From Halichondria panicea (Eukaryota > Porifera > Demospongiae > Suberitida > Halichondriidae): a stretch of 64,000 bases of DNA. Positions within the stretch are counted from its first letter, which is position 1. Each line of letters begins with the position of its first letter. Below, piece by piece: positions 33,980 through 61,048 of the stretch. A program made the translations under genes and the position numbers. Where the stretch lies: positions 1,166,931 through 1,230,930 of the forward strand of contig NC_087386.1 of NCBI RefSeq assembly GCF_963675165.1. Direction: 5' to 3'. The notes beneath the pieces were generated by a model that saw only the letters and a program-made list of their open reading frames with translations, had not been told where the DNA came from and ran no database searches.

Positions 33980-36900
33980 TTAATTGTTATTGCGTTCCTC
34001 CACTGTCACCTGCAGAGAGGCTAGGTCTGCTATGAGCGCTTCCAATGTAGCTCCTACGACAATGTTCCCGCCATTCTCTGCCATTCGAATGAGTTTCTTT
34101 GCTTTCTCAACGTCTTCTTCTGAGCCAGTTATCGTACAATCTCGAGTTTGGGGTCCAAATAAAGAAAATGACTCCAGTCCTGTAGGTCCATCTTTGATAT
34201 CGATGTTGGCACCAGAGAGGCTCCTGATTGCATTGATAGTTTGACCCTTGGTTCCTATGATTAGACCAACTTTGTTATTGGGAATTTGAATTGTTTCGGC
34301 CTTGGCAGTACGCTGGTACACTTGCTTCTTGAGTCGGTCCAGAATCATCTGTAGTGCTCTTTTCCGGTTCTCTTCACTGCCACGAATCACTCCTCTCTTG
34401 ACACCACCCAATCCACCATAGTCTTTCTCTATCTTGATTATGGTGTTCGTTTCCCTTTCGACAGCTTGAATGTTTCTTCCTTCTCGTCCGATAATGATGC
34501 CAGTGTGATCAGTGGGGACAGTGAACACTAGCACTCGTTCTTCACCCTCAGAGAAGTTCGTCTCGAGATCACTAGATACTACAAAGAGAAAGGAATATGA
34601 ACATAATTATGCAGGGAACAAAATGTCAGCAAACCATTTGGAGATATGTTCAGTCCGCCCTGCTTGAGAACTTCTTCAGGCGACCACCAATCAGCAGCAA
34701 AAGGATGGGATCGAAAATCATTCAAAGCACTTTCAGAGGAGGCTGCATTACTCTGAGGCTCAGGGTTTCCTTGATTGGGAGGAGGGGAATTCGATGATGA
34801 ACTATCGATGTTATCAAATCGGTTGTCCTTTTTGAGCATTCGAACAGGTAGAAAGACTCCACGTCCATTGGCACAGTAGAAATATTTCACATCATCCTTA
34901 CTCCCATCTCCACCGCCAGGTACCTCATTTTCCTGTGTAAAACGATAATGAAAATGTACAATTTAGTCATTGTCATATAATACCATTTCAATTCCAGCCA
35001 CAGGTTGCCCTAGTGTCTCAGGAAGTTCTCCAATCCACCTCACCACTCCGCACCAAGCTGCAGCGTCACGTCTCTCCACCATCACCATATCATCTAGCTC
35101 GAACGGACAAACAGACGGTGATCTCCCAGGAATCCTCAGGGGGCGAGTAGGTGTGGCAGCATTTTCCTGGAGGCTTGCAGGTATCAAACTAGGAGAAGGG
35201 GCCGCGGGAGCCAGCCTTTCAAATCGGTTTCTCCTCACAAATTCACGATCACTCTCTGGGGCTAGCCTATTAGGGAGACGTGGTGAGGTAGGAGGGACGT
35301 AAGGAAGTGGGTCACCTGTGGACATAAGAATAAGATTGTCAACACATTTGCCAACCTATAAGGGAGTAACTATATAGTCATGCATGTTTGACCACTAGAA
35401 GGTAACGTATGGCGGGAAATTTTCGTTGGTAAACATTTTCGTATGAACTGCCCAATTTTTGTTTTAAGTATTCATACAGCCCAGGATAATGACGTTTTTT
35501 GCGGTAGAATAATTTTGTATGATGCATGCTCTACAATACGACATTCCACCATACGAAAATAACCGGCAATACGGTAAGTAGGGACAACTAACTAGGTATA
35601 CTGTTTCAGATCTATTAGAGTAATATACTCCATTCATTGCGGGAATAGAACACGACACTATCACAGAGACATCACTTAAAAAGATTTACTCGAATAAAAG
35701 GTACTTTAATTTCACAAGAGTTTCCCAAGGGAATGCACAGCACACTATAATTATTATCCAGGGACTTAATTATCTGTAATTAAGGGTATTATTCAGGACA
35801 ACACTAACTTTTTTTAACATCTGTCTTGTCAAGTTTTTTCAGGAGCTCATTTAATTCACTGTCGTACAAGGCAGCATAGAGCATGTCTCGAGTCGCTTCT
35901 TGTCCATCTCTTCGCTTCCACTGGTAAAAAAACTGATGAATTTGCTCTTTGAGATCTCGCCCGTTAGCATATTCAATTGAATCAATGTCAGTTTGTGTGA
36001 ATTGAAGACTTCTAGCCAGGACCATCCATCCATGTCCAATGTGGTCAGAAATTTCCCTGATGAGGGCATCCAATGACTCTACAGGGTCACATTCAGGGGA
36101 CCTTATTTGAGAGGAACCAAGCCCTGTGATTGAGAGGGGGGAGGGTACACATCTCTTAAGCTCTTCAACGATTCGCTTATGTCCTGCGTGATTCTCACTG
36201 GACTCAAGCAAGCAATAGTAGAGCAGGCGAAAACCATTTTCACCTCCATTTTTTTTTGTTAGATTGAAAAGATTCGTTATTTTGGCTGAATTGTCAAGAT
36301 AAGGTGATAATATGGAATCGATGTCAGCCATTAGTACCAGATGACATTTTAGCAAGTATGGAAGCAGTGTTGACATGCTAACGTAGAGAATAAAGTTCGG
36401 GTACTCTTTAAAGACATCTTCAGTCACTAAATACCTTTGCTCAATTAATGATGCATCTGAGGAGAGGAGAAAAAAATAGTAGTTTACAGATTTACTCTAA
36501 TAGGCAGAATGAGGAAATTTTCATTATGAATAATATACAACCTAGCCTTGTCACCAGGCTGATTTTCTCAAATATAACACTAGGTAGAAAAATAGGCCTG
36601 AGGAAGATTGTATCTGGCTGGGCGTGGTTGGATTTTGGCGAATTACGTGTCAATTTCTCCCAAAATAGCTCCGTGATGGATCGTGTTATAACTATCCTGT
36701 GACGAAAGCTATAAACTAGGTACGGTAGCTATCAAGCACTAGCTTATGCACTGCATTGTGTCAAACAACAAGGCCCCCCCACTCAATGAGCAATGAGAAT
36801 CATCAAGTTAAGTACAAGCTGTCAATGTCAAACTTCTGTGTGAAGGTAGGGAAGTTTTTATTTGGAATTTGGCAAGTCTCTGTGCTATACCAGTCACAGT

Positions 36901-39900
36901 GCTGAACCGGAAGCCATTCTACCTGGCCATAGATTGTGAATTGACCACAACAATACTTATTGTCATATTAATATCGACATTTACGCATATACTAAATAGG
37001 CATAGGACTATTTATCTCTGTCTGTTCTATTAAAAAAAATCGGCCTGGGGACAAGGATAAAAAGATATACCTGCACTTCGGATTATAATTTGTTCTTTCA
37101 TATACGAAAAGATTTGTTGAACCTCCTCCCAGCTAGGGTTGTGATGAGTGTGGAACCATTTTTTGATCACTTCCATTAGTGCTGTATCTGTGTCTTGGCG
37201 GCACTGTACTATTATGGTTTCCAGCACATCACTCTCCAAGTTGAAGAGCATTCCTACTCTGTACCACGAATAGGACCATGGAATGAGCTGAGCAAACACA
37301 TTGTGAACGGTAACTTCATCAGCACCTATAATTATACAAGCACAAAAATACATTAATATGTGTTGATCATTTTCATATTTTGAGCTAACTTACCATTATG
37401 TATCTTGGTAAACCAGACGATTTGAGCAGAAGAAAGTGCAATTATTTTATTCATAGCAGAACATCTCCAGTGACCCTCTGTGCTAGGCACAATCATGTGT
37501 GTTTGGTCAACCTGACCACATGTACAGTGAAACCCCACAACAGGAAGAGCTTGACCAGAAATGTGATATGCTTCCGCGGCTTTGTTTAAACCATTAACTA
37601 GTGCTTTTCTGATACATGGTAGAAGCTCATGATCTTCTATTGAATTGACATAAGCGTTCACTTCAGCATTTTCATTTCTATACAAAGTAATGAGAGTATT
37701 AACTCCGCGTAAAACAAATTGTACACGATTCTTGAAAACTTGACTTTGATCAACGATTTTCCAAGGCCATGGGTCACCATTGTACACTGAGCATAAGTAA
37801 CATATTATGTACTCAAAAAAGCCACGAGCAACAGAATACTGAAGCACAAGTGGAGCAACTTTGGTTTGACTCACACCTAAAAAAAAGCTGAAAGTTTCAA
37901 GATCGGCTTCTTCCCTCAGTAAGCATGGCATCAAGAATAATGACTTTCCCAGCTCCATTAATATATATAAATCTTTGAAGAGGGATATTGCATCTTTACT
38001 TGTGAACAATCCTCCAGCATATACGTCTTCACAAACTTCAAATGCAGTGATAGGAATAATAGCAGCTCCATCGTTATGTTGCATGGCATAAAGGTTTATC
38101 TGTGCAATCAATTCAATCAATACGGTCGAATCTTTAAATATCACATTTGGAAGGACATTGCCAAAATAAAGAATCAAGCCACTTATATGCAAGTTAAGTA
38201 AGGCAATTTCAAGATCATTAGTTGACAGTCTAAATTCTGTGGAAATAATTAATACTTCTTGCTTGCTAATAAACCTCCGATTGTTGTGACGCATAACTTT
38301 CTTGATAGCGTGACCAAGCATGTGCCAGGATAGAGAGACGTGCTTCACATCACTTAAGGTCAACGATGATACTAGGTGCTGTTCAATGTTTTCTATCTCC
38401 CTAATTGATTTGCCTACTTCAAATACTGCTTGTTTTCCATCCTCATCAGTAATTAACTTTGCCTGTTCATTATCCTTAAAAAGAATCTCACTCTTTTTCT
38501 CGTTAGTTTCAATCGATTCAAATTCTGCATGCTTTCCAACGACCATCAATTTTGTTGCTAGCACACTGATGTCTTTTATTAGTTGCTTACTAGTGAGATA
38601 TCTTTGTATTTTATTTCCGTGAACTGACATTCTCTGAAGAAATATTTTTTCTTCGAGATCTTGGCTCAAACTCATACAGTTAATGCCTATAGTGATGCCT
38701 TTAAGGAAAATCGGGAGCACATCCAATAACCAAACATCAGAGCAGCATATGCAATTAATTATGTCAAGATCTGTTGTTGATTGATCACAATTGATCATCA
38801 GTCGCAAAATGTTCTCAGAAGAGACACATTTTAATATACTTTCTTTAGGTATTGGCTGATAGGCTAGAATCGGATTGGAAGTTAAATTATGTCGTGAATC
38901 TGTAGTAAATGCATATTTTGGCTCTTCAAACTTTTCATCAACAGATTGATCTTCTTTTCCTTGCTTACTTTGATTTCTTGGACTTGTTTCAGGGTTTTCA
39001 TTTGAGACCTCTTTAGGTGCTTGTTGTATAGAATGTTCATCTGACTGGTCATGTTCAGCTCCCTTTGGAGTCTGTACTGCAGCATTACGAGCAAATACCA
39101 TATCAAAATCGTGATCATGTAAAGGTTTAATATTTTCACCACTGACGGTATAATAACTAAATTCTAGGTTAGTTGTTGTTCTAGGAATGGGATCCAATGA
39201 GTGTGGTGATTCAAAAGGTGTAAAGTTCTTATCCATAATCATTCGCTTGCAAGCAAGGACATCTGATCCTGGCAGTCCAGTAAAAAGAATTGTTGTGAAT
39301 CGCAGACCAAACTTCTTTCCTTTCATTGCAGCCTCAAATCTAGCCTCAGCATCTGTAGAAAAGGAATGAGTATTATAATAGGCTGTATAGTTACTATGTT
39401 ATACTTACCTTTCACAGTAGTTATCTTTTGATGATGTTCATCAGTCAACCATATTTTGTGGGAAGTAGTGAGCTCCATTTTTTTGCCAGCATGTTCACCA
39501 CATGGTACATGATTATCCGTAGCAAATGGCAAGTATTTGAGAAAGTGGGTGCTAGATGAATGTTCAGAGCAAGAACACGCAAATGTTAAGCGTACTGATT
39601 GTGTATTGACAACTCTTTGCAACTGCACATCAAGAGTGGATACAATTTTAAGGCATAGGTCACGGTGGGGAATATTGTCATCAGTAAGTCCGTCAAAGTG
39701 AGCTCGAACACAGTCAATAAATTCCGTGAATACAAGCTGAAACTGGCAATTTATTTCGAATGACACCATGTTCTTACAATTTATAAAATTAGGTGTCAGT
39801 TTCCATATTATACTGCCTTCTTTAATTCCAGAAAGTACAGTCATTAGTCTTGGGAAAAAACCAGGTGGTACAAACTTGGATTTCGAAACCAAAAAGAGAG

Positions 39901-42900
39901 GTGCCACTTTTAAATCGGCTGGTAATACAGAACAGGCCGAAATGCTTGCATCAAACACATGCTGATGATTAGGACAAATGGGAAGCACTTGTAACATAGA
40001 CGGAATAAAGTAGCCTTCCAGTAGAGGCATTGCTAAATGGTGCTCTTCAAAGAAGCTAAGAATCCATGATAGCGGGAGACCTGTCTTACTATCTGCTAGG
40101 AACCTTTCACCAACTTGGACATTCAGAATACCCTGTGTTTGAAGCTGCTTCCATTGTTCAGGGAGATCAATATATACCTGGGGATCAAGAATAGTTCCAA
40201 GAATGGAAAGTAGGTTCTTAGGCTCAACAATAACATATTCTTGGAGATTTTTATTGCCATGATACCATATAAATATACCAAGTTCGTGAAAATAACAGAG
40301 AGCTGCTTGAACGTCTGTTTTGTGCTTTTTCGCTATATCACTAGCTTTTTCAAATGTTACAATTCCTGTGTAAGGCTGTTGTAAGCGTGATTCTCGTTCT
40401 AGATCAATCTTGAAAGCAATCCATTTGATAGGTATTTTTGCTTTGGCACTCTTTGTGCAGGAAACTATTTGCTCTCGCAAAGCTTTCATTCCAGGATCTT
40501 CATACTTCGCTCCTGATCGTGTGTTATCTATCTCAAACATAACAGTAGAGTTGGTTGTAGAAGTTAAAGGTGAGAGAACTTTTTCAAGAAAGTCTATCTG
40601 CAGAGACTTCACATCATCTTTTAACTGAAAGAACATTTGCTCCAATTCTTGCTTATCATTTTCTTTAATTTGGTCTTTGAAAGTGCCGATAAAGGCTACT
40701 TTAGGAAAAGTTGTTCCAATAGCTGCTTCGAATACTCTCTTCTTCAACATATCTGGGAGGTTGCTGAGATGCAAATCAAATGAAGTAGAGTCTAGAAAGG
40801 AAAGACATCGATATAGGTAATCAGTAGATGTGTAAGGAGACTCTCTCTCTCTTTCAAGTTGGCAGGTAGGTCTAATAGAAGCGTTGGAATTATCCAACAG
40901 GTCACGTAGACTAACAACAATGCCATAAATGGATCTAAATTTGGCAAAGCAAGGAAGAAGATCTTGAAACATTGGTTGACCTCCTGTGTCCCAGAGAGTG
41001 AGGTAAATATTATCTGGGTCGCTTTTATAAACGTTGTCGTATTTCTTAAATACCACGGTGCTTTTCTTTGAGTCCACTGTAGTTTCAAATGTTTCTTGAT
41101 ATAGAAGCTCTTGCTCCATTATGATTGTGCTTTTCTCCTTATCATTAAAGGGAATGTTCTGGAGATGCTTTCTAATGGACGTCTTTCCCACTCCAGTGTG
41201 CCCAATGAGAATCATGTGCAAATGTGATACCTCCAAATATTCAGAATCTGGTAGTTCAAGAGTAGCTTTCATTTCCAGGTGGGTTTTCTCCAGATCTAGT
41301 AAGTTATGTGATAAAATGAGACAGACACAAGATGTAATACTTACCTAGTATGCGTGATAGCTGTTTAGCAACATCTGTTGTATTACTTAGACAGCCTGAT
41401 TTCACGTCTGGGAACCACCTGTTGTTGAAATTACTGAAGAGAATGTGGTTTTCGGGTAGCTCAGAGTTGTCGCTATACTGTTTACGATGGACCATCAAAA
41501 GAAGAGTATCTTTGAGCCAATTTAGACTAGGTAACTCAGGTTGGGTCATGGTTTCCAATTGATGGAAGTACGAATGCTCATACATAGGTAAAAACATTGC
41601 TTTTGCGTCATCTGTACTAGTTGTATGTACAAATAGAGATTCTGTAGTCATTTGAAGCTTAATATTAGGTGAGAACCCAAGAACACTAATAGTAGCATTC
41701 AATAACAATGACAGCTGTTGTATTTCAGATAAAGTCTCAGAAGAAAAGCAATACTCTTTTAATGGTTGCTGAACTTCAAACAGGATGATAGGGGGGGAAG
41801 AGAGTTTAGTATCAAAATGAACACATTTTGCTGGCATTACATTGGGATTACTCCGTTGTAGATCTTCAATGTATTTACTGAATTTCAGAACATCGTCCTC
41901 GCCATTGTATTTTAATGCCATACATTGCTGCCCATTGTGAAGAGCCTTCCAGAGCGAGCATGGAGACACGTCAAGGTCCATTTCCTCTTGTAGTTCAAGT
42001 TTACTTTCACAAAATATAGTGTTGAGAATTTGATTGTAAGTTACTTCCACTTTAGATCCAGGGTCTACAATAAATATTAAACTGAAGAATGCACCAAAAA
42101 TTAAAATTTACTTGCCTGTAGACGTGTGTTCAAGATCCGTGGTATCAATGTCTGCTTCCATTCCATCACTTGTCTCATTATCCGCTTCACTACACGTACT
42201 TCTGATCTCAGCCAGCTCACTATTACCGAGATTAGACACAGAACCTGCAACAAATGATTACAGAATAGTATCTAGTGCTCTTGTGCTTCTAGAGAGAGTT
42301 GACAAATTTACTGACATTATAAAGGAACCATTACAATTTTTAATACTCTTTTACCTGTATCTTTTAGTCTAACTTCTTCTAAGTCAAATTCGAGTAGATT
42401 TTGCTCCCTTATAGTAACTTTTAGGAAGCCATGGGCCTTGAGCTGAGACTTCTGATACTTTGACAGTTGACTAATTTCCCCAAAGTAAGGAGGTGCTCCG
42501 AATACAAGCTCAGTACAGCCTTCTCTTGCTTGTTTGAAACATAGATGGTAGTTTGGTGAGCCGAGAATTTTTGCGAATACATACTTCATATGTTTGATCA
42601 CGTTGTGTGAGAGCTGATCATACTCAGAGTCTACTTTGCACTTCACTTTAACTTGGTGTTTTGGCCAAGGACCCTCGTCGTGTAGGAAGATAAAGCAACG
42701 CTGACTGACATACGTTTTAAATTTTGCTTTGTAGTCATCCAGAACTGAATCACTGCTGGTTATTGTAGGGAAGAGATATTTATTTCGGAGTTGTTCAATC
42801 AATTCATAATCAAACCATGAACAGTATTGCTGTTTCGTCAAATAGACTGCAATATCATCAAAACTCTCGAGATCATCCAAGCAATCTAAAACTTGTGAGC

Positions 42901-45561
42901 TGGTCGATGGGAAATACCACTTAGGCTTTAGAAGTATCTTTAAATACACAATTAATTTCTGTATGTCTACAGACTTCTCTAGTTCACTAAATGTGTCCAA
43001 CACTAACTCGCAAAAACTTCCATGCAGTTTTGTCGATTGGTGAAGCAACTCCATTTCAATGTAATCAATATCGTCAGAAGGAATTCCGTAGATTTCTAAC
43101 TTAGGAAATGGATAAGCTTTGGGATTGGGGCAGGTTTCTCCAGTAATGAAACCATACACAGTGCATTGCCCACACCCACACTCAAATTGCAAGCGAGGTA
43201 CTTGTTGCAATCCCAATGATGAAACTGAATGAATACTAGATGTAAACGATTCACTTGAATCACTAACATCTGATGATAATGATTCTCGGGTAAACGCTCC
43301 ACTGTTTTCTGTATAAAAACATGCATGAAATAAGGAATTATGTGTGTGTGTGTGTGTGTGTGTACATTGTATTGAGTGATTGGTGTTTCCCTGCAGTCTC
43401 AAAACATGCCAAAGATCTGGTCTATTCTATATCAAAAGTGGTCAATATGATGTATGTATAATCTCACCATTTTTTTCAGCCAAGTACCGACATACATTAT
43501 TAGCTATCTCTTCTTTCTCAAGCCTGAGTAATTTTTCCAGTAGAGCTGCGTATGTCGCTTTAAAAGAATCATGTCCTTTCCACAGAGATAAGCACTTGAT
43601 CATCGCCATTTGACTGCCGTTTAAATGCAAAGTGGTTTTCACATCATCTTTTTCAGCTGGAGTTAGGTTCATTAGATTGAGATATAATTCAATCTTGTCA
43701 AAATGTTTAGCCAAGAAGGTGATATCGTCATCTTTTATTTCAGAATTGAGTTGATTTTTGGTTAAACGGTGTCTATCCATAAGCCCTGAAAATATAAAAG
43801 TTATTGGTACACATGCAATGGTGTATGAGCTCTACGGTATGTATAATTGTTATAACCATGGCAGCGGTATAGTCATAATTATGCAGACAGCTTGTATAAA
43901 CTACAGCTCAATTTGATTTTTGGTGCAACTATGATACTAACACCCCACAGTAATATTATGGTAATGAGTATCCTGAAACCTTTCTTTGCAGCAATAATAC
44001 ATAGTGCCAAATCGATATCTTTCTAGGACCTAGAGTGATACTTAATTCCCATGCACTTCAAATCCAAAGCCAACGAATGGTGACAATTACAAAGTATAAC
44101 TATACATGCATAAGCCATTTCTTGCAAAGAGACAAAATTATACACTCCTAGATAATATTACTATCCACCTTGCATATGTGACGAGGACAGTCGGGATGTA
44201 TCCATGGTTGTGGACACAGAAGCACCAGACGTCTTTTGTTTCTGCCTCTTAGAACCACCATCATTCACTGTTACAAGAGGTACAGATTCTCCGCTATCTT
44301 TCCCTACAGGCAGTTGTTCTGGTAATGGCTGACAAGCTGTACACCAGGAAAAATTGGTATTTGCAGTTTCAGACAGTGAATGAAGGTTTTTATGCTGATG
44401 GCTAGTACTACTTATTCCACAATGTATGCTAATAGACTTACACAATGGTACAGTTTGTGGGAGCTCTTCCTCCGCTGAGAGATACTCGGTAGATGAATCA
44501 GAAGAGGAACGATCTGAATCAATTTACAATGATTGCAATAAAATAATAGACACGGGATGCATCACCTTGTTGACAATAATTCTCTCTGATTTTCACTGCC
44601 AAATGTTCCATTGAAATGCCTGTGAAAGCATCAGCAATTTTCTCCCAGCCAATTCCGTATAGCTCACAGTTAGTTACAATGTACTGACATAGAACCCTTT
44701 TCTGTTCGTTTATATCTGTGAAAAGTTGATTTGTTACTAATTTTTATGATACTTTTTGCTTACCTTCATGCTTACGCTGAATTCTGTCTAATTCCAGCGG
44801 AGGAATACCCAGTTCTTTACCGAAAGGAATGGGATCAGTCAACTCGAGCAATTCGACAAATAGATTCAATGGTGTGAGCTTGCGAACAGGGCCAGGGTTA
44901 GTCTCGACATCTCCAGCAAGTATTAGCAACATTAAAAGAACCTCCAAACTTTGTAGTTTGCTTTTGAAGCTTACTACCAGTGCCATATGGACACCAGGAG
45001 AATGTTTGTATTGCTCAGTGTGTACATAATTATGATTAAAGAGAGACGGATAAATTTGCCTTGAAACATCTTCCTGTTTTTGTAGCTCTACACAGAATGC
45101 AGGGGCTTCTATTGTGGGTAGAGAGAGACAGTCTCTAAGGGCTGTGGGAAGCATGGGTAGATTGATAGTGATTGGTAATCAACATGGCATCAGTGTACAT
45201 TGTGCCTTCAGGTTCTTCGTTTTTCTTTACAGTGAAATGGAATCGGTAGTGGCCACTATAACTATACTGGTACAACATGACGAAAGATGTATAGACACAG
45301 CATTTAATTAATGTATAGCCAACCTTTTTAAAGGTACATTCAGGTTCAGTCCAAATTAAAGAGACTGGTCAGTCATCGACTAAGATTGGTACATGACTTA
45401 TAACTACATATACGGACAACAATTTATAATCAAGGTAATTCTGGCAAGCTACTAAAAATTAGTAAGATCTAACTGGCCAGAAGAACCGTTTAACACTTAT
45501 TGTAAAAGTTTTATAATGAATGAAACATACCTTCTACAACATTTCCACAGTCATAGCCCAT
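33980..45561 (-). CDS. Giant 2A-DEATH-ROCO-CARD-DEATH-CAP-Gly-KH protein (predicted, 3000 residues)
   Basis: Fifteen exons join without a stop: 45531-45561, 44764-45141, 44566-44715, 44169-44513, 43468-43785, 42355-43308, 42116-42244, 41345-42064, 39409-41295, 37394-39352, 37071-37325, 35809-36456, 34984-35315, 34635-34932 and 33980-34578 (9,003 nt). Nearly every intron is phase 1, typical of shuffled modules. Domains in order: N-terminal region ending in GDVETNPGP (about 87-95); DEATH (about 100-185); Ser/Thr-rich linker; DEATH (about 305-405); Cys-rich domain ECGCGQCT (about 435-530) and a further alpha/beta region; weakly kinase-like segment (about 770-1000); ROC GTPase with GHTGVGKTS, DTGGQ and GTFKD, then COR (1009-1637); a second ROC-COR whose P-loop is degenerate (1638-2290); DEATH; CARD-like; DEATH; CAP-Gly; two KH domains (GREG and GTKG loops). 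A cytosolic death-fold scaffold is inferred. That it is one gene, not two or three, is the weakest point: the exon 4 and 14 donors are poor. Confidence 0.68.
35406..35573. mobile_element. MITE, family B, in the cassette intron
   Basis: Ends CGTATGGCGGGAAATTTTCG and CGAAAATAACCGGCAATACG are inverted partners. A decayed copy sits at the matching place of the second cassette (about 48150-48283), so insertion predates the cassette duplication. Confidence 0.7.
43339..43363. repeat. (GT)n microsatellite in the giant gene
   Basis: A short GT tract lies in the intron between the second DEATH exon and the Cys-rich exon, about 30 bp upstream (in transcription sense) of the acceptor at 43309. Confidence 0.8.
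44888..44911 (-). other. 2A-like ribosomal-skipping motif DVETNPGP
   Basis: The codons read GDVETNPG then P, the full consensus D(V/I)ExNPGP of 2A peptides, preceded by a hydrophobic helix (LEVLLMLLILAG), as active 2A sequences require. In the giant protein the Pro is residue 95. Skipping would release a 94-residue leader and start a 2,906-residue product with Pro. 2A-like sequences at the N-termini of NLR-type proteins have been reported from sea urchin and sponge, where they can also act as signal sequences. Activity here is inferred. Confidence 0.85.
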
Positions 45562-46668: not shown

Positions 46669-49017
46669 TTAACTGTTATTGCGCTCCTCTACTGTCACCT
46701 GCAGAGAGGCTAGGTCTGCTATGAGCGCTGCCAATGTAGCTCCTACGACAATGTTCCCGCCATCCTCTGCAATTCGAATGAGTTTCTTTGCTTTCTCAAT
46801 GTCTTCTTCTGAGCCGGTTATTGTACAGTCTCGAGTTTGGGATCCAAATAAAGAAAATGACTCCAGTCCTGTAGGTCCATCTTTGATATCGATGCTTGCA
46901 CCAGAGAGGCTCCTGATTGCATTGATAGTTTGACCCTTGGTTCCTATGATTAGACCAACTTTGTTATTGGGAATTTGAATTGTTTCGGCCTTGGCAGTAC
47001 GCTGGTACACTTGCTTCTTGAGTCGGTCCAGAATCATCTGTAGTGCTCTTTTCCTGTTCTCTTCACTGCCACAAATCACTCCTCTCTTGACACCACCCAA
47101 TCCACCATAGTCTCTCTCTATCTTGATTATTGTGTTAGTTTCTTTTTCGACAGCTTAAATGTTTCTTCCGTTTCGTCCAATAATGATGCCGGTGTGATCA
47201 GTGGGGACGGTGAACACTAGCACTCGTTCTTCACCCTCTGAGAGGTTCGCCTCGATATCACTAGATACTACAAAGAGAAAGGAATATGAATATATGCAGG
47301 AAACAAAATGTCAGCAAACCATTTGGAGATATGTTCAGTCCGGCCTGCTTGAGAACTTCTTCAGGCGACCGCCAACCAGCAGCAAAAGGATGGGATAGAA
47401 AATCATTCAAAGCACTTTCAGAGGAGGCTGCATTACTCTGAGGCTCAGGGGTTCCTTGATTGGGAGGAGGGGAATTCCATGATGAACTATCGATGTTATC
47501 AAATCGGTTATCCTTTTTGAGCATTCGAACAGGTAGAAAGAGTCCATGTCCATTGGCACAGTAGAAATATCTCTCACCATCCTTACTCCCATCTCCACCG
47601 CCAGGTACCTCATCTTCCTGTGTAAAAATACTCAATAAAGGAATTGGACGAATTTATATACATGTATGCTTACCATTTCAATTCCAGCCACAGGTTGCCC
47701 TAGTGTCTCAGGAAGTTCTCCAATCCACCTCACCACTCCACACCAAGCTGCAGCGTCACGTCTCTCCACCATCACCATATCATCTAGCTCGAACGGACAA
47801 ACAGACGATGATCTCCCAGGAATCCTCCGGGGGAGAGTAGGTGTGACAGTATTTTCCTGGAGGCTTGCAGGCATCAAACTAGGAGGAGGGGCCTCGGAAA
47901 ATGAAAGTATATTCTGTGCACTTCCATATCCAGATGAGTCGGAATTATTTGACAAGTTAGAACCCAGCCAATCAAGTCTTCTTCTCTTAAAAACCTCAGT
48001 ATCACTCTTTGGGGCTTGCCAAATATGGGGACGTGGTGGGGTAAGAGGGACGTATACGTAAGGAAGTGGGTCACCTGTGGACATAAGAATAAGAATAAGA
48101 CAGTCAACACATTGGCCAACCTATAAAAATGGGAGTAACTATACATCAATTGGTTGTTGGTGCAAATTTTCTTATTTTAAATATTCGTACAGCTCAGGAT
48201 AATGACGCTGAACATATTGCGGTAGATTAATTTCGTATGACATGCTCTACAATATGATATTCCAAATAATCAGCTATATACGGTATTAGTAGGGACAACT
48301 AACTACATACATTGTTTCAGATCTAGTATATAGAGTAAGATACTCCATTTATTGCGGGAATAGAACACGACACTATCACAGAGACATAGGATTTACTTGA
48401 ATCAAAGGTGTGCTTTCCACAGAGAGTTTCCCAAAGGGAATGCACAGCACACTATAATATTATACAACTCCCAGGGACTTATCTGTAATTAAGGTACGTA
48501 TTCAGGACAACACTAACTTTTTTTAACATCTGTCTTGTCCAGTTTTTTCAGGAGCTCATTTAATTCACTGTCGTACAAGGCAGCATAGAGCATGTCTCGA
48601 GTCGCTTCTTGTCCATCTCTTCGCTTCCACTGGTAGAAAAACTGATGAATTTGCTCTTTGAGATCTTGCCCGTTGGAATATTCAATTGCCTGGATTTCGA
48701 TTTCCGTGAATCCAAGACTTCTGGCTATGAACATCCAGCTTCCTCCAATGTGATCTGATACTTCCTTGATGAACGCATCCAATGACTTTTCAGCTGCAAC
48801 GGAAAAATATAATTTTGTGCTCGATTAGCTAGCTAGCTCAGGTATGTACGACCTGACTGGTGATATGTACGTACGTACGTGAACATAAACATCAATGAGC
48901 AGCTACGTGTCACCAGGAGCAAATGAGGAATTACTAATCTAGAAACTCACTTTCACTCTTGCTGTCACCATCACCATGAATTGTCTTTTTCCACTTTAAT
49001 TTCGGCCGAGGTTCATT
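46669..49017 (-). pseudogene. DEATH/CAP-Gly/KH cassette, copy 2, with a stop codon in KH1
   Basis: Exons 48951-49017, 48518-48793, 47674-48074, 47320-47617 and 46669-47267 match the other two cassettes closely. DEATH (about 48520-48780), CAP-Gly (CGVVRWIGELPETLG, split by an intron) and the linker are open. In KH1 the codon for Gln after GRNGRNI is TAA (47155-47157), so both KH domains would be lost from the protein. The rest of the KH frame downstream is still open and well conserved, so the stop is recent, polymorphic or an assembly error. The 5' start is unclear: the first exon recognised (NEPRPKLKWKK) opens in phase 0 without an ATG and does not join in phase to the CARD gene upstream. 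It may be a truncated DEATH/CAP-Gly gene instead of a dead one. Confidence 0.7.
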
Positions 49018-53828: not shown

Positions 53829-54327
53829 GTTGAAATGGATTGTTGAGCATAACCAGCCTCTCCCTTTATTTGCTGTGCAAACTGTGGCGCGCATGTGCAG
53901 TACTAGAGGTGGGGCTGAGATGTTACATGTGAACACAACAAAAGCTAATAACCATAATATTTATTATAAGAACTGATAGCAGTAACAAGGAGATAAAAAC
54001 AGGGGATAATATGAATACAACACAACAATGTAGCTAGCTAGAGAGATATATCTCTAAATAAAATACTTGACTTCCAATGACATTGGATAAATGAATTGAA
54101 CACAAAAAACAATGTTCAGACTAGAATACAGGAATGTACTCTCTCTTGGACTTTCTCACTTTCTTCTCGAGACTCTGAAGAGTCTTGAGTGTTGTCATCT
54201 CCAGAGCTGTAGGCCTCTTGGTCGGGTCTGTTGCCAGTAGCAACTTCACAATGTTCACCACCTCATTAGGTAGTCTCTCTGTGAACTGGGCAGGGAACTC
54301 GAGCTGGCTGCGCAGAGCTGTGAGCAC

Positions 54328-55205
54328 CTATGATGATGTGTGGGTGGGGGTGTGGGTGGGTGGGTAGTGGATGAACGAAAGTGTGTGGGTGGTTTTAGTG
54401 CAATAAACATACATTGTAGCCATACATTGTAGCATGGAAAGGAATACACAATGAAGGAATTTTCGTATAAACTAACCTAATGAAAGCACCGCAGGTGCTG
54501 ATGCCTCGGTGGAGGTGCCAAAGCTACATAACATAAACCTACTAATAGCTAGCTTTTATACACACATTGTCATTTGATTATAATTATCATGATGAACATT
54601 TTTAATTTTGCTGCATGCAATCAACCGAATAGTAGGTAATGATCGACCATGATTATTGTTAAAAACGATCGATGCCAAAAGTTCAAGTCTAAAATTAATG
54701 GCTGCAAGTCAGCAGAGCCTTGCAGCTCTCTGCTCACTCTTGCAGCTACCAATAGCTTAGCCTCATTCCCAGGCCTTACTTTTTTTTGCTGTTGTCACTG
54801 TTCATCCATAAATCACATAGTGAGGCAGCAAAGAAATAAATGGGCGTACAGTTAAGAAAAAGTAAGGCCTGGTTTGGGAAATCGCGTGATCCACAAGGAT
54901 TTTTATGAACGTGGGCAATATGTAGCCCACAATCGTGACGTAAGGTATTCTCCCACGCATTCAGAGTTAATAAGACTGTACTGTACTGTACTGAGACAAC
55001 CACCAAGCTGTGCTGCAAGTCAGATCAGAGAACCAGCGTGGCCAGCTCTGGTGGCAGTAGCTACCTGCTATATAATAATGATGACTAAGCTATTCTTGAT
55101 CTATACTACGCCTCGTGCAATTACTATCCTTGCCATTGCTTGTTACTCGTGCTATTAATTCCATATTGCATTCATATATCCATACTATTAATAATACATA
55201 CTAAC
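54328..55205. other. Kinase-like pseudogene interval lacking expected exons
   Basis: The segment should contain exons for the kinase activation segment and large-lobe helices, but none is readable. This supports decay of the gene. Confidence 0.45.
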
Positions 55206-55507
55206 CTTCCTGTGGCATCACTAGTCCATTTGTTGCGGGACCAAAGCCGCCAAGTTTGAGACGTCCATCACCACGAGAGAAAAATACGTTTGACGGGTTC
55301 AGGTCACGATGCCCTCCCCATGAATGTACACCAGTGCCTCCAAGATCTGTAGATAGTATAAAAGAACAATCACAACTACTGAAAATCGTAATTATAGCAA
55401 AGTTAGGCTTCCTTTATCAGAAAAATTCAAGGTTTGTAAAAATGTAACAGGAGTTAGATCTATACATTTCCGGCTCAGGCAGTACCTATAGGCCATGGAT
55501 ACGACAC

Positions 55508-55617
55508 GAGTACCTCGATTAGGCTTGATTAGGCTTAGTCATGTGCAAACTTCAACGTTAAAATCATTGTTGCATGTGACTAATTAGCCTAATCGAGGTA
55601 CTCGTGTCGGACCTTCT
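55508..55617. mobile_element. Hairpin element related to family A (one end incomplete)
   Basis: An inverted repeat runs inward from about 55508 (CGACACGAGTACCTCGATTA) and from about 55606 (TAATCGAGGTACTCGTGTCG). The right end continues as ACCTTCTCCTCTG, like the family A terminus, but the left end lacks the CAGAGGAGG part. Flanks GGCCATGGA and GGTTATGGA match at seven of nine positions, possibly an old duplication. It lies between kinase-like exons. Confidence 0.55.
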
Positions 55618-56658
55618 CCTCTGGGTTATGGACATTCCATTCAGAGATGAATTGAGTCAGCTAATACATTATGACAATAACACAGAAGCAAATCTAACAA
55701 TACCTGTTTGAAGAAGTCGAGTACTTGACTCTTCTTCCTACTCTTCTCCTCGCAGTGCTCTAGTAACCAGGTGTGGAGTGTGTCTGTCTTGCAGAGCTCC
55801 GTGGGGATGAAGAGGAACGTTGGGGGAGGGGCAGAGCTCTCACTGCACGAGAGTATATAGACACAATGAATGCTAATCTCCAAATATAATATCTTGAAGG
55901 TCCGAAATACGTAATTTCAGCATTATTTTTGTGATACAGAAAACCCATTATTTTATAAGGCCTGAAGTGGACATGTTATAATTATTATTGCAGAAGAACA
56001 AACATGTGTGTACAGTACGATCGTATTATAGAGACTCACATAGCTCTTGAGTACTGACCACACCCATTTCTCGCCACACCCTTCATTAGCTCTCTCCGTC
56101 CAGGGGGTGTGGTAGCGTACAATGTTGGGGTGGTTCTGCAGTGTCACCAACCCCTTCACTTCCCGTAGTACTGCCTCTTGCTCCTTAGGACTGTGAAATA
56201 TTGAAAGTAATTTTTTTAAAAGTAGGAAAACTACATGTACATGTACTCGTACTAACCTTGTGAAATTGTATTTGCAATGACACACTAAATATGCTCAGTA
56301 CATGCTTGCACACTAGCTGGCCAGGAGTTTGGGGGTTGTCCTAACGACTATTTACAGGCACAAACACACTGACTCACTTGTCAGAGAGTCTGAGTGCTCT
56401 CAGAGCGTAGTCCTCCTTGGCACGATACACATGGAACAACACACCGACACCACCACTGCCTATCAGGTTCTTCACTTCGTAGTCATCCAGTCTACAGGGG
56501 AAGGAAGGATGGATGGTTTAGTTGTAGTTAGTGTTTACAGAACACCAATACAAACACATCACATCTCCTACATGGAGCTCTGACATACACCTGTGGTACT
56601 ACAAACCATTCTTTATGCTTACCTGCACTCAGGAGTGATAACTTTAGGTGTAGCAACA

Positions 56659-57861
56659 GACAAGCTGTACACCAGGAAATATTGGTATTTGCAGTTTCAG
56701 ACAGTATGAAGGTTTTTATGCTGATGGCTAGTACTACTTATTCCACAATGTATGCTAATGGACTTACACAATGGTACAGTTTGTGGGAGCTCTTCCTCCG
56801 CTGAGAGATACTCAGTAGATGAATCAGAAGAGGAACAATCTGAATCAATTTACAATGATTGCAATAAAATAATGGACACGGGATGCATTACCTTGTTGAC
56901 AATAATTCTCTCTGATTTTCACTGCCAATTGTTCCATTGAAATGCCTGTGAAAGCATCGGCAATTTTCTCCCAGCCAATTCCGTACAGCTCACAGTTAGT
57001 TACAATGTACTGACATAGAGCCATTTTCTGTTCTTTTATATCTGTGAAAAGTTGATTTGTTATAAATTTTTATGATACTTTTTGCTTACCTTTATGATGC
57101 TTACGCTGAATTCTGTCTAATTCCAGCAGAGGGATACCCAATTTTGTACCAAAAGGAATAGGATCAGTCAATTCAAGCAGTTCTTCATAAAGATTTGAGA
57201 GTGTAAGTTTGTGAACAGGACCAGGGTTAGTCTCGACATCTCCAGCAAGTATTAGCAACATTAAAAGAACCTCCAAACTTTGTAGTTTCCTTTTGAAGCT
57301 TACAACCAGTGCCATATGGACACCAGGAGAATGTTCATATTGCTCAGTGTGTACATAATTCTGTTTTGGATGATGTCTGTATTTCAAGAGAGACGATGAA
57401 ATTTGCCTTGAAACATTTTCCTGTTTTTGTAGCTCTACACAGAATGTGAGGGCTTTTATTGTGGGTAGAGAGAGACAGTCTGTAAGGGCTGTGGGAAGTG
57501 TGTGTAGATTGATAGTGATTGGTAATCAACATGGCATCATTTGTACGTATGCCTTCAGGCTTTTCTTTACAGTGAAAAAATGGAATCGGTAGTGGCCACT
57601 ATAACTGTACTGGTACAACATGACGAAAGATGTTTAAACAACATGCAACCTTTTTATTTTTCGTTAAAGGTACATTCAGGTTCGAAGAGAGTACATGGTC
57701 AGTATTATTGACTAAGATTAGTAGACAAAAATTGTAATCCTCATCATTTCTTAGTAAAAAGTACTTCTGGCCAGCTTAATAATAAGTAAAAGTACATATC
57801 ACCAACTAATTTATAATGAATGAAACATACCTTCTACAACATTTCCACAGTCATAGCCCAT
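56659..57861 (-). pseudogene. Second 2A-DEATH gene start, truncated and frameshifted
   Basis: Exons 57831-57861 (MGYDCGNVVE), 57090-57488, 56892-57041 and about 56659-56839 copy exons 1-4 of the giant gene, about 12.3 kb away. The 2A-like motif is intact (57217-57240; Pro is residue 101), as is the DEATH domain (LLELTDPIPFG, IGWEKIADAFTG). In the fourth exon a 2-bp deletion near 56705 shifts the frame to a stop (HKNLHTV, then TGA). At 56659 similarity to the giant gene ends abruptly and kinase-like sequence starts. A short 2A-DEATH protein of about 235 residues could still be made, so it may be a small functional gene instead of a pseudogene. Confidence 0.7.
57217..57240 (-). other. 2A-like ribosomal-skipping motif, second copy
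   Basis: DVETNPGP is conserved exactly, with one silent difference in the last Gly codon (GGT for GGC). The preceding hydrophobic helix LEVLLMLLILAG is also identical. The upstream leader is 6 residues longer than in the first copy, by an in-frame insertion. Confidence 0.83.
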
Positions 57862-58733: not shown

Positions 58734-61048
58734 TTAATTGTTATTGCGTTCCTCCACTGTCACCTGCAGAGAGGCTAGGTCTGCTATGAGCGCTGCCAAT
58801 GTAGCTCCTACGACAATGTTCCCGCCATCCTCTGCAATTCGAATGAGTTTCTTTGCTTTCTCAATGTCTTCTTCTGAGCCAGTTATCGTACAGTCTCGAG
58901 TTTGGGATCCAAATAAAGAAAATGACTCCAGTCCTGTAGGTCCATCTTTGATATCAATGTTGGTACCAGAGAGGCTCCTGATTGCATTGATAGTTTGACC
59001 TTTGGTTCCTATGATTAGACCAACTTTGTTATTTGGAATTTGAATTGTTTCGGCCTTGGCAGTACGCTGGTACACTTGCTTCTTGAGTCGGTCCAGAATC
59101 ATCTGTAGTGCTCTTTTCCTGTTCTCTTCACTGCCACGAATCACTCCTCTCTTGACACCACTCAATCCACCATAGTCTCTCTCCATCTTAATTATGGTGT
59201 TTGTTTCCCTTTCGACAGCTTGAATGTTTCTTCCTTCTCGTCCGATAATGATGCCAGTGTGATCAGTGGGGACAGTGAACACTAGCACTCGTTCTTCACC
59301 CTCAGAGAGGTTCGTCTCGAGATCACTAGATACTACAAGGGAATATAAATATAATTATGCAGGGAACAAAATGTTAGCAAACCATTTGGAGATATGTTCA
59401 GTCCGGCCTGCTTGAGAACTTCTTCAGGCGACCGCCAACCAGCAGCAAAAGGATGGGATAGAAAATCATTCAAAGCACTTTCAGAGGAGGCTGTATTACT
59501 CTGAGGCTCAGGGGTTCCTTGATTGGGAGGAGGGGAATTCGATGATGAACTATCGATGTTATCAAATCGGTTGTCCTTTTTGAGCATTCGAACCGGTAGA
59601 AAGACTCCACGTCCATTGGTACAGTAGAAATATCTCTCACCATCCTTACTCCCATCTCCACCACCAGGTACCTCATCTTCCTGTGTAAAAATACTCAATA
59701 AAGGAATTGGACAAATTTAATTATATATGCGTACCATTTCAATTCCAGCCACAGGTTGCCCTAGTGTCTCAGGAAGTTCCCCAATCCACCTCACCACTCC
59801 GCACCAAGCTGCAGCGTCACGTCTCTCCACCATCACCATATCATCTAGCTCGAACGGACAAACAGACGGTGATCTCCCAGGAATCCTCCGGGGGAGAGTA
59901 GGTGTGGCATTTTCCTGGAGGCTTGCGGGTATCAAACTAGGAGGAGGGGCCTCGGGAAATGAAAGTCTATTCTGTGCACCTCCATTTCCAGATGAGTCGG
60001 AGTTATTTGACAAGTTGGAAGCCAGCTTTTCAAGTCGTTTTCGCCTCACAAACTCTTGATCACTCTCTGGGCTCTGTGTGGGGGTGTCCAGATTGTTTTG
60101 ATGCAAATTTGGTGAGTTCTGTACAGCCAGGGGAGAATGTTGTCCAGTAGTAGTTGTTGAGTCAGGTAAAACATTAGTATCTAGCCTATTAGGAGGGCTG
60201 GTTATAAGTCTGCTGATGCTAGCAGGAGAATTTTGGCCAGTGGTGGTTGTCGAGTCAGGTACGGCATCAGGATCCAGAACAGTTACTAGTTGTGGTGGGG
60301 TAGGAGGGACGTTAGGAAGTGGGTCACCTGTGGACATAAGGGTAAGACTGTCAACACATTAGCCAACCTATAAGGGAGTACATGCATATGCCCCCAGGCT
60401 TGTATTTCTCATGACAGAGACATCACTTAAAAAAGGATTTACCCAAATCAAAGGTACTTTCCACAGGGAGTTTCCCAAGGGAATGTACAGCACACTATAT
60501 TAGGAATATGAATAAAACCCAGGGACTTTCTGTAATTAAAGGGTATTATTTAGGACTTACTTTTTTTAACATCTGTTTTGTCCAGTTTTTTCAGGAGCTC
60601 CTCTAATTCACCGTCGTATAAGGCAGCATAGAGCTTGTCTCGAGTCGCTTCTTGTCCATCTCTTCGCTTCCACTGATAGAAAAACTGATGGATTTGCTCT
60701 TTGAGGTCCCGTTCATTGGAATATTCAATTGCCTGGATGTCGGTTTCCATGAATCCAAGACTTCTAGCCAGGACCATCCAGCCACGTCCAATGTGGTCAG
60801 ATATTTCCCTGATGAGGGAATCCACTGACTCTACAGCTACAGCGTCACCTTCAGCTGCAACGTAGGAATATATTGTGATCGACTAGTAACACTATACATA
60901 CAAGCTAGCTGAGGTACTTGCAAACACGACCTGACTCGGTGGTACGTACGTAAACACACAATGAACCAGACCAGCAGCTATGTATGTATATCACTATGTA
61001 ATGTGTAAAGAACTACTGAAGGACCAGCAGACTGAACTTACTTGCCAT
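58734..61048 (-). CDS. DEATH - CAP-Gly - KH - KH protein, complete stand-alone copy
   Basis: Five exons (61042-61048, 60561-60854, 59735-60327, 59383-59680, 58734-59332) total 1,791 nt, encoding 596 residues. The first exon holds only ATG-GCA-A, and the splice gives MATEGDAVAVESVD. Residues about 14-95 are a DEATH domain (SLIREISDHIGRGWMVLARS). A Pro/Ser/Thr linker with a repeat PDSTTTTGQ follows (about 110-210). CAP-Gly spans an intron (VVRWIGELPETLGQPVAGIE, then GDGSKDGERYFYCTNGRGVF) and recalls the CYLD type. A second linker, then KH1 (GIIIGREGRNIQ) and KH2 (GLIIGTKGQTINAI), both with intact GxxG loops for single-stranded nucleic acid binding, complete it. I know of no described family with this order. 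Likely cytosolic; a link between death-fold assembly, microtubule or partner binding and RNA binding is inferred. It is divergent to the hnRNP H/F gene. Confidence 0.85.

Follow-up and report, generated by a model that had tools for sequence, protein, structure and literature searches.

A StopGo-type leader on a death-domain ROCO gene of the sponge Halichondria panicea and its counterparts across the genome

Results

A ROCO gene with an in-frame StopGo octapeptide

The stretch of Halichondria panicea DNA analysed here (64,000 nucleotides of contig NC_087386.1, positions 1,166,931 to 1,230,930; hereafter the window, with positions counted from its first letter) carries on its minus strand a multi-exon gene, called gene A below, that encodes a predicted death-domain ROCO protein and has near its start an octapeptide of the StopGo, or 2A, type. 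As the first-pass annotation of this DNA had claimed, the peptide GDVETNPGP lies in frame, after LEVLLMLLILAG. The octapeptide itself, DVETNPGP, occupies 44888..44911 (minus strand), is predicted to cause skipping at its final Gly-Pro bond, and conforms in frame to the pattern D/G/C/N-V/I-E-x-N-P-G-P. A degenerate DNA version of the motif matches the window twice (44889-44911 and 57218-57240, both minus strand) vs. a mean of 0.00 in 100 shuffles, and the second match encodes an identical peptide (57217..57240, minus strand) in a duplicate, gene B.

The first coding exon of gene A, MGYDCGNVVE (45531..45561, minus strand, with donor GTATGT), was placed by homology to the RefSeq models P0022 and P0023. 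The leader exon (44764..45141) holds the remainder of the leader, a hydrophobic stretch, the octapeptide and the first half of a death-like domain, the second half of which is encoded by the exon at 44566..44715. Further along the same strand are an exon that by eye resembles a second death-fold domain (43468..43785; its counterpart in locus L048, of the C5 class, has a sub-threshold Pfam Death match at E 0.015), an exon encoding a Roc GTPase and COR-A (39409..41295), and a C-terminal Death exon (35804..36456), which ends ...TDVKKS* at a GTTAGT that is either a stop or a weak donor. The Pfam matches are at E 8.9e-10 for Roc, 6.6e-11 for COR-A and 1.4e-18 for the C-terminal Death domain, and the order Roc then COR in one exon, both above the Pfam cut-offs, identifies gene A as a ROCO gene. 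Pfam found no NACHT in gene A, and neither an endonuclease nor a reverse transcriptase in the gene model.

Modelled from an initial MALVV, gene A has 11 exons with an open frame of 2530 residues and ten introns, nine GT-AG and one GC-AG, all in phase 1. This start was dropped because the RefSeq paralogues have one more upstream exon; the models of the closest copies, on contigs C6 and C12, start MGYDSGNVVE and MGHDCGNVVVE, one exon further upstream. The MGYDCGNVVE exon joins gene A in frame, which gives a leader of 94 residues up to NPG, places the octapeptide at residues 88-95 of the extended model and brings the length, by arithmetic, to 2592 residues. The motif, which had been described as N-terminal, is thus close to the start of the protein but sits behind a further upstream exon.

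Six full-length relatives of gene A were found, five of which are H. panicea RefSeq models (P0022-P0026) that each contain the motif; the paralogues with motif-bearing models lie on C6, C12 and C10. P0022 has a kinase and Kelch repeats after the Death domain, where gene A has a KH cassette downstream. In P0023, two leader exons 2.8 kb apart (L003 at C12:5109224 and L004 at C12:5112012) are part of one predicted protein, which, having two octapeptides, could therefore give three products.

The octapeptide recurs across the genome

A search of the H. panicea genome (131 Mb, 39 contigs) for D[VI]ExNPGP returned 116 matches, vs. 0 for a reversed-pattern control; the places were listed by splitting the pattern on the variable codon (71 + 45). 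With a first codon not beginning with G, the pattern matched 6 further places, vs. 2 in the control, other G-initial first codons being outside this search. N replaces D before VE at C14:1031503 and C14:3451483, and Y does so at C15:970695 and C15:1011836; of these two variants, the published expanded core covers the one with N and does not cover the one with Y.

Sequence was inspected directly for 59 of the 116 matches (61 loci minus two duplicates). All 59 have Gly at p11, a position that is not part of the search pattern, and all have hydrophobic residues at three or more of p6-p9, while 57 have (A/S/C)G before the Asp; these sites are not independent, because many are close copies in tandem arrays. 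In the window the upstream hexapeptide is LLILAG, L-rich and ending in (A/S/C)G, with Gly at p11. L-rich hexapeptides ending in (A/S/C)G before Asp are described as one StopGo class in RNA viruses; the L-rich motif 6 of that study was active in vitro, and almost all motif mutants lost activity nearly completely (PMC12846837). As far as sequence goes, the context of the window motif fits this published L-rich class, in agreement with the first-pass proposal that a 2A-type sequence lies close to the N-terminus of a death-fold ROCO protein.

Exons downstream of the sites

Gene leader exons, many in tandem arrays, are what 54 of the 59 sites read resemble. Four others (L027, L029, L031 and L043) are open reading frames (ORFs) of non-long-terminal-repeat (non-LTR) retrotransposons, in which DIELNPGP or DIEPNPGP stands just before a PHD finger and an endonuclease (Pfam was run on L027 and L043), and one (L030) is unclear. 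Downstream ORFs were read at 21 loci. Death-like exons follow at 13 of them (L016, L019, L024, L028, L045, L047, L048, L050, L053, L054, L057, L061 and L066) and exons that by eye look CARD-like at three (L010, L032 and L033); L006 belongs to the window family, L011 and L038 are unclear, and L014 and L030 have neither type within reach, a Death exon lying 4.3 kb beyond the L014 site. The CARD reading is by eye only, the exons of the C2 and C1:10.2 Mb classes having 0 Pfam matches and no CARD in a PDB profile search.

A Death, NACHT or Roc-COR exon lies downstream on the same strand at at least 37 of the 116 sites. Such counts are lower bounds, because the domain lists hold 102 of 265 candidates for NACHT and 150 of 503 for Death; the Roc-COR places were taken from relatives of the gene A Roc-COR, with separate COR-A and Roc family lists outside these statistics. 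Among the matches listed, NACHT lies within 6 kb downstream on the same strand at 13 of the 116 sites, with 0 upstream and 0 on the opposite strand, and within 12 kb the numbers are 15 downstream, 4 upstream on the same strand and 0 opposite. For Roc-COR, again among the matches listed, 17 of the 116 sites have one within 16 kb downstream, 3 have one upstream on the same strand and 0 on the opposite strand; within 8 kb there are 7 downstream, 1 upstream and 0 opposite. Of 11 close Roc-COR relatives, gene A counted, seven are preceded on the same strand by a site at a distance of 5-16 kb and four have no listed site upstream, so the leader is not needed by every member.

The domain directly after the motif of gene A has a sub-threshold Pfam Death match (E 0.056) and is unlisted at E<=1 in a Pfam scan of the whole gene A model. 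A six-row profile of the paralogous post-2A domains gave three PDB matches at E<=10, all to the Fas death domain (E 0.055-0.11), and we tentatively take the domain to be a diverged death domain. For a nine-row profile (eight rows from other leader classes and one from P0025), PIDD and FADD make up 8 of the 9 PDB rows (E 0.007-0.93). Comparison of the two death-like alignments with each other is weak (hhalign probability 5, E 0.0079). Scanned singly against Pfam, death-like exons of other classes gave sub-threshold Death matches only (L066, E 0.021; second exon of L048, E 0.015; L028, E 0.05), and Pfam Death had no match in L024, L044, L047, the first exon of L048 and L061; a genome search with PF00531 placed exons near the C13, C14 and C15 sites above the cut-off.

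The leader motif is kept in paralogues

Coding constraint acts on the leader, and its motif is kept in paralogues. Among L001-L005, leader exons of five paralogues, no indel has a length that breaks the reading frame in threes, and the ratio of non-synonymous to synonymous rates (dN/dS) is ~0.37 over the leader; as pairwise sums, in which pairs are not independent, dN/dS is 0.48 before Met63, 0.43 from Met63 to the motif and 0.40 after the motif. Within the octapeptide the pairwise sums are 22 synonymous vs. 0 non-synonymous differences.

When the genome was searched with a window-type leader from which the motif had been left out, five of five good matches adjoined a site, the sixth row (E 0.129) being noise. 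In a second leader type a variable middle separates the start, MGIxVELWRARIGLF, from the end, LLLLAGDVExNPGP; this start, or a related WRxRxGL, is conserved in leaders at the C5, C10:6.4-6.9 Mb, C11, C15 and C1:10.2 Mb sites. Its query without the motif returned 34 rows, corresponding to 30 loci plus one chance row (E 0.40), and at 26 of the 30 loci a site coincides with the leader or follows shortly after it. In two of these 26 a stop interrupts the frame of the leader, and the four loci without a site are broken or partial. When six leaders, four of them with the MGIxVELWRARIGLF or WRxRxGL start, were scanned with Pfam, nothing rose above cut-off.

Database searches, in which the motif was part of the query, gave a similar picture. 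The exact motif is present in 28 of 32 relatives of the second type, the exceptions being P0028, which has DVESNPGA in an otherwise intact WRARIGLF-type leader, P0044, which is frameshifted, and the decayed P0045 and P0046. The motif is retained even where overall identity between the leaders of relatives is as low as 31-36 per cent. Judged by its sequence, P0028 is a natural variant that should not skip. For the window leader, the 21 proteins found, including the window's own, comprise 17 with DVETNPGP, three with DVEINPGP and one with NIETNPGP.

Hydropathy was assessed for eight leaders with a 19-residue window and a threshold mean of 1.6. The hydrophobic helix that the first-pass annotation had seen before the motif of gene A is there as a stretch, but a weak one: it is short, contains a Glu, and no 19-residue window reaches 1.6. 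One C11 and one C15 leader peak at 3.06 over 19 residues, and three segments exceed 1.6 in one C1 leader. In some leader classes the fused form is thus likely to go to a membrane; for the window gene the hydropathy result makes such targeting doubtful. A simple N-terminal signal sequence, as had been suggested, is not supported for this leader of ~94 residues; a 32-residue form would require internal initiation at Met63 (MALVVSF...).

Discussion

Proposed products of gene A and alternative explanations

Considering the motif, its frame and exon context, its recurrence and its maintenance in copies, we think it probable that the gene A leader is a StopGo leader that gives a leader peptide, a cytosolic receptor and a minority fusion, where we infer skipping, its efficiency, the locations of the products and any immune role. 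The frame of the gene A mRNA would open with the ~94-residue leader, ending in its hydrophobic stretch and the octapeptide, and at NPG/P most ribosomes would release the leader and continue without making the Gly-Pro bond. Two products are expected: the leader as a peptide of its own, and a death-domain ROCO protein with Pro-Val at its N-terminus that would be free in the cytosol. A minority of ribosomes would fail to skip, yielding a fusion that the hydrophobic leader may send or tether to a membrane. Both the skipping by most ribosomes and the minority fusion are proposed because of the published behaviour of such sequences: as reported for the N-terminal 2A-like signal sequences that NLR proteins of Strongylocentrotus purpuratus carry (Roulston et al. 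2016, PMC4981915), a sea-urchin leader shows ~80 per cent recoding in vitro, and a mainly Golgi location when recoding is blocked. At the scale of the genome, the leaders may act as exon modules for several death-fold receptor families of H. panicea, of both NLR and ROCO type.

A number of observations weigh against this picture. Among the domains listed, only 37 of the 116 sites have one downstream, and among the matches listed within 6 kb Death exons lie upstream on the same strand (6) nearly as often as downstream (9), with 0 on the opposite strand. The four close ROCO loci without a listed upstream site are on C28, C1 (twice) and C4. P0024, a RefSeq isoform of a paralogue, starts past the first 2A of its locus and retains the other one, and the motif is missing from the relative P0027, whose model begins further downstream. 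To these are added the sub-threshold Death match of the post-2A domain, the low hydropathy of the window leader and the lost proline of P0028.

Alternatively, the leader could be an ordinary N-terminal membrane or signal segment in which NPGP hardly skips, the receptors being simply membrane-bound. The strong hydrophobicity of several leader classes (those on C11, C15 and C1) and the NPGA of P0028 speak for this, as does PMC12909245, in which those NLRs of Dysidea avara and Amphimedon that have predicted transmembrane domains are described as putatively membrane-bound. We nevertheless consider it improbable, as it leaves unexplained why the octapeptide changes only synonymously among five paralogues, why Gly occupies p11 in every site read, and why the octapeptide persists in relatives with such divergent leaders. 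A different question is where translation starts: initiation at Met63 would give a short, sea-urchin-like signal leader of 32 residues and initiation at Met1 the long one. A Met at -25 is present in L001-L005, and the published sea-urchin leaders are 26 residues long (PMC4981915). The RefSeq models of the closest copies, on the other hand, start MGYD or MGHD, the region before Met63 is coding (dN/dS ~0.48), and the copies at C10:4.27-4.42 Mb have their nearest Met at -61, which in our view makes it rather unlikely that the leader works mainly by alternative starts.

Highly improbable, finally, is the notion that the sites are remains of non-LTR retrotransposons with 2A-initiated ORFs, which chance or faulty gene models have linked to host genes. 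At L027, L029, L031 and L043 the octapeptide frame does enter a PHD-and-endonuclease ORF, but only these 4 of the 59 sites read are of that kind, with L030 as an unclear fifth, whereas splicing joins the window leader in frame to a death-like domain and a ROCO gene, and the leader has been duplicated together with the death-like domain and is under coding constraint. For gene A such an origin was rejected, there being no endonuclease or reverse transcriptase and the frame continuing into the death-like domain and Roc-COR; the leaders may nonetheless descend from non-LTR elements in the distant past.

Returning to a StopGo leader with separate products, a more tentative extension, which we regard as possible without favouring it, is a modular StopGo system that spans the genome. 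Conserved small membrane-type leaders (MGIxVELWRARIGLF... to LLLLAGDVExNPGP) would be made one-to-one with cytosolic NLR or ROCO receptors, and whether a receptor is free, with an N-terminal proline, or tethered to a membrane would depend on how efficiently ribosomes skip, a property governed by sequence or by translational stress. If this were true, the 'membrane-bound NLRs' of other sponges would be partly released before reaching any membrane.

Relation to known systems

The window leader is a real and maintained leader of the StopGo type with a putative function, and together with its counterparts it amounts to a far larger version of the sea-urchin arrangement, one that takes in ROCO proteins as well. 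As in the sea-urchin NLR leaders, DxExNPGP follows a hydrophobic stretch at the start of death-domain receptor genes, and other H. panicea loci also place the octapeptide ahead of NACHT exons. In contrast to the sea urchin, the receptor encoded by gene A is a ROCO protein, its leader has ~94 residues and an extra exon vs. 26 residues, and the sponge has another leader family (that with the MGIxVELWRARIGLF start) and 116 sites genome-wide. With the viral L-rich StopGo sequences, the sponge sites share the octapeptide, the Gly at p11 and an L-rich hexapeptide ending in (A/S/C)G, but they are found in cellular multi-exon genes rather than polyproteins, and their upstream product is a leader peptide.

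APE-type non-LTR retrotransposons reportedly carry 2A sequences as well (Odon et al. 2013 are said to have described them), and the H. panicea ORFs in which a PHD finger and endonuclease follow DIELNPGP or DIEPNPGP are alike in this respect; gene A differs in having neither endonuclease nor reverse transcriptase and in a frame that enters a death-like domain and Roc-COR. Like other ROCO proteins, gene A has Roc and COR-A in one exon, and it differs from them in its StopGo leader and in having death-fold domains at both ends. The 2A leaders on ROCO proteins, their number and their length look new relative to the sea-urchin arrangement. A 2025 paper by Rao et al., whose title is reportedly on eukaryotic 2A sequences, may already list the sponge sites.

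Titles and abstracts of the open-access literature yielded no sponge 2A leaders in a search that did find the sea-urchin paper, and for 2A-like sequences combined with ROCO nothing related was found in the open-access literature. By word search of the accessible text, 'ribosome' and 'Roc' are absent from the H. panicea immune-repertoire paper (PMC8242945), as are 'ribosom' and 'ROCO' from the Dysidea avara NLR paper (PMC12909245). The first-pass statement that sponge NLRs with 2A leaders had already been reported could not be confirmed, 'sponge' and 'Amphimedon' being without a match in the available part of the Roulston paper.

Cellular genes are described as using StopGo only rarely (PMC12846837), vs. 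one animal genome that has 116 StopGo-type sites, of which no fewer than 37 precede a Death, NACHT or Roc-COR exon on the same strand. H. panicea is an early-branching animal in which dual products of one receptor mRNA can be tested, and its leaders suggest a reason for the predicted membrane segments on sponge NLRs. The many natural leader variants, including one with a lost proline (P0028), provide material for studying how recoding efficiency evolves.

Gene B and the KH cassettes of the window

Gene B, on the minus strand, has leader and post-2A domain exons at 57831-57861, 57090-57488 and 56892-57041 (56892..57861 overall), and in blastn its leader and post-2A domain are 90.5 per cent identical to those of gene A over a 1000-column match. 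It keeps a C-terminal Death exon, whereas the ROCO part gave no match when the two gene regions were compared by blastn.

The window holds three copies of a cassette made up of Death, CAP-Gly and two KH domains, at 60.9-58.7, 48.8-46.7 and 36.1-34.0 kb. The first (58734..60854, minus strand) has a standard GTAAGT donor after its Death exon. The second (46669..48824, minus strand) is decayed, with an in-frame TAA in its first KH domain, and like the third it has GTTAGT at the end of its Death exon, which reads as a TAG stop when unspliced. In the third, CAP-Gly and two KH domains (33980..35315, minus strand) lie downstream of gene A, in phase with its Death exon if the GTTAGT donor is used. The C-terminal KH domains attributed to gene A in the first-pass annotation are thus only candidate parts of the gene A protein: judged from the splice signal, the protein could end in CAP-Gly and KH only through use of this weak donor. 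An assignment of the KH exons to separate upstream genes was dropped, the same cassette having been found downstream of gene A and in phase. Exons that by eye are protein-kinase-like (54121-56500, minus strand) lie between the leader exons and the later exons of gene B and possibly represent another gene or an insertion.

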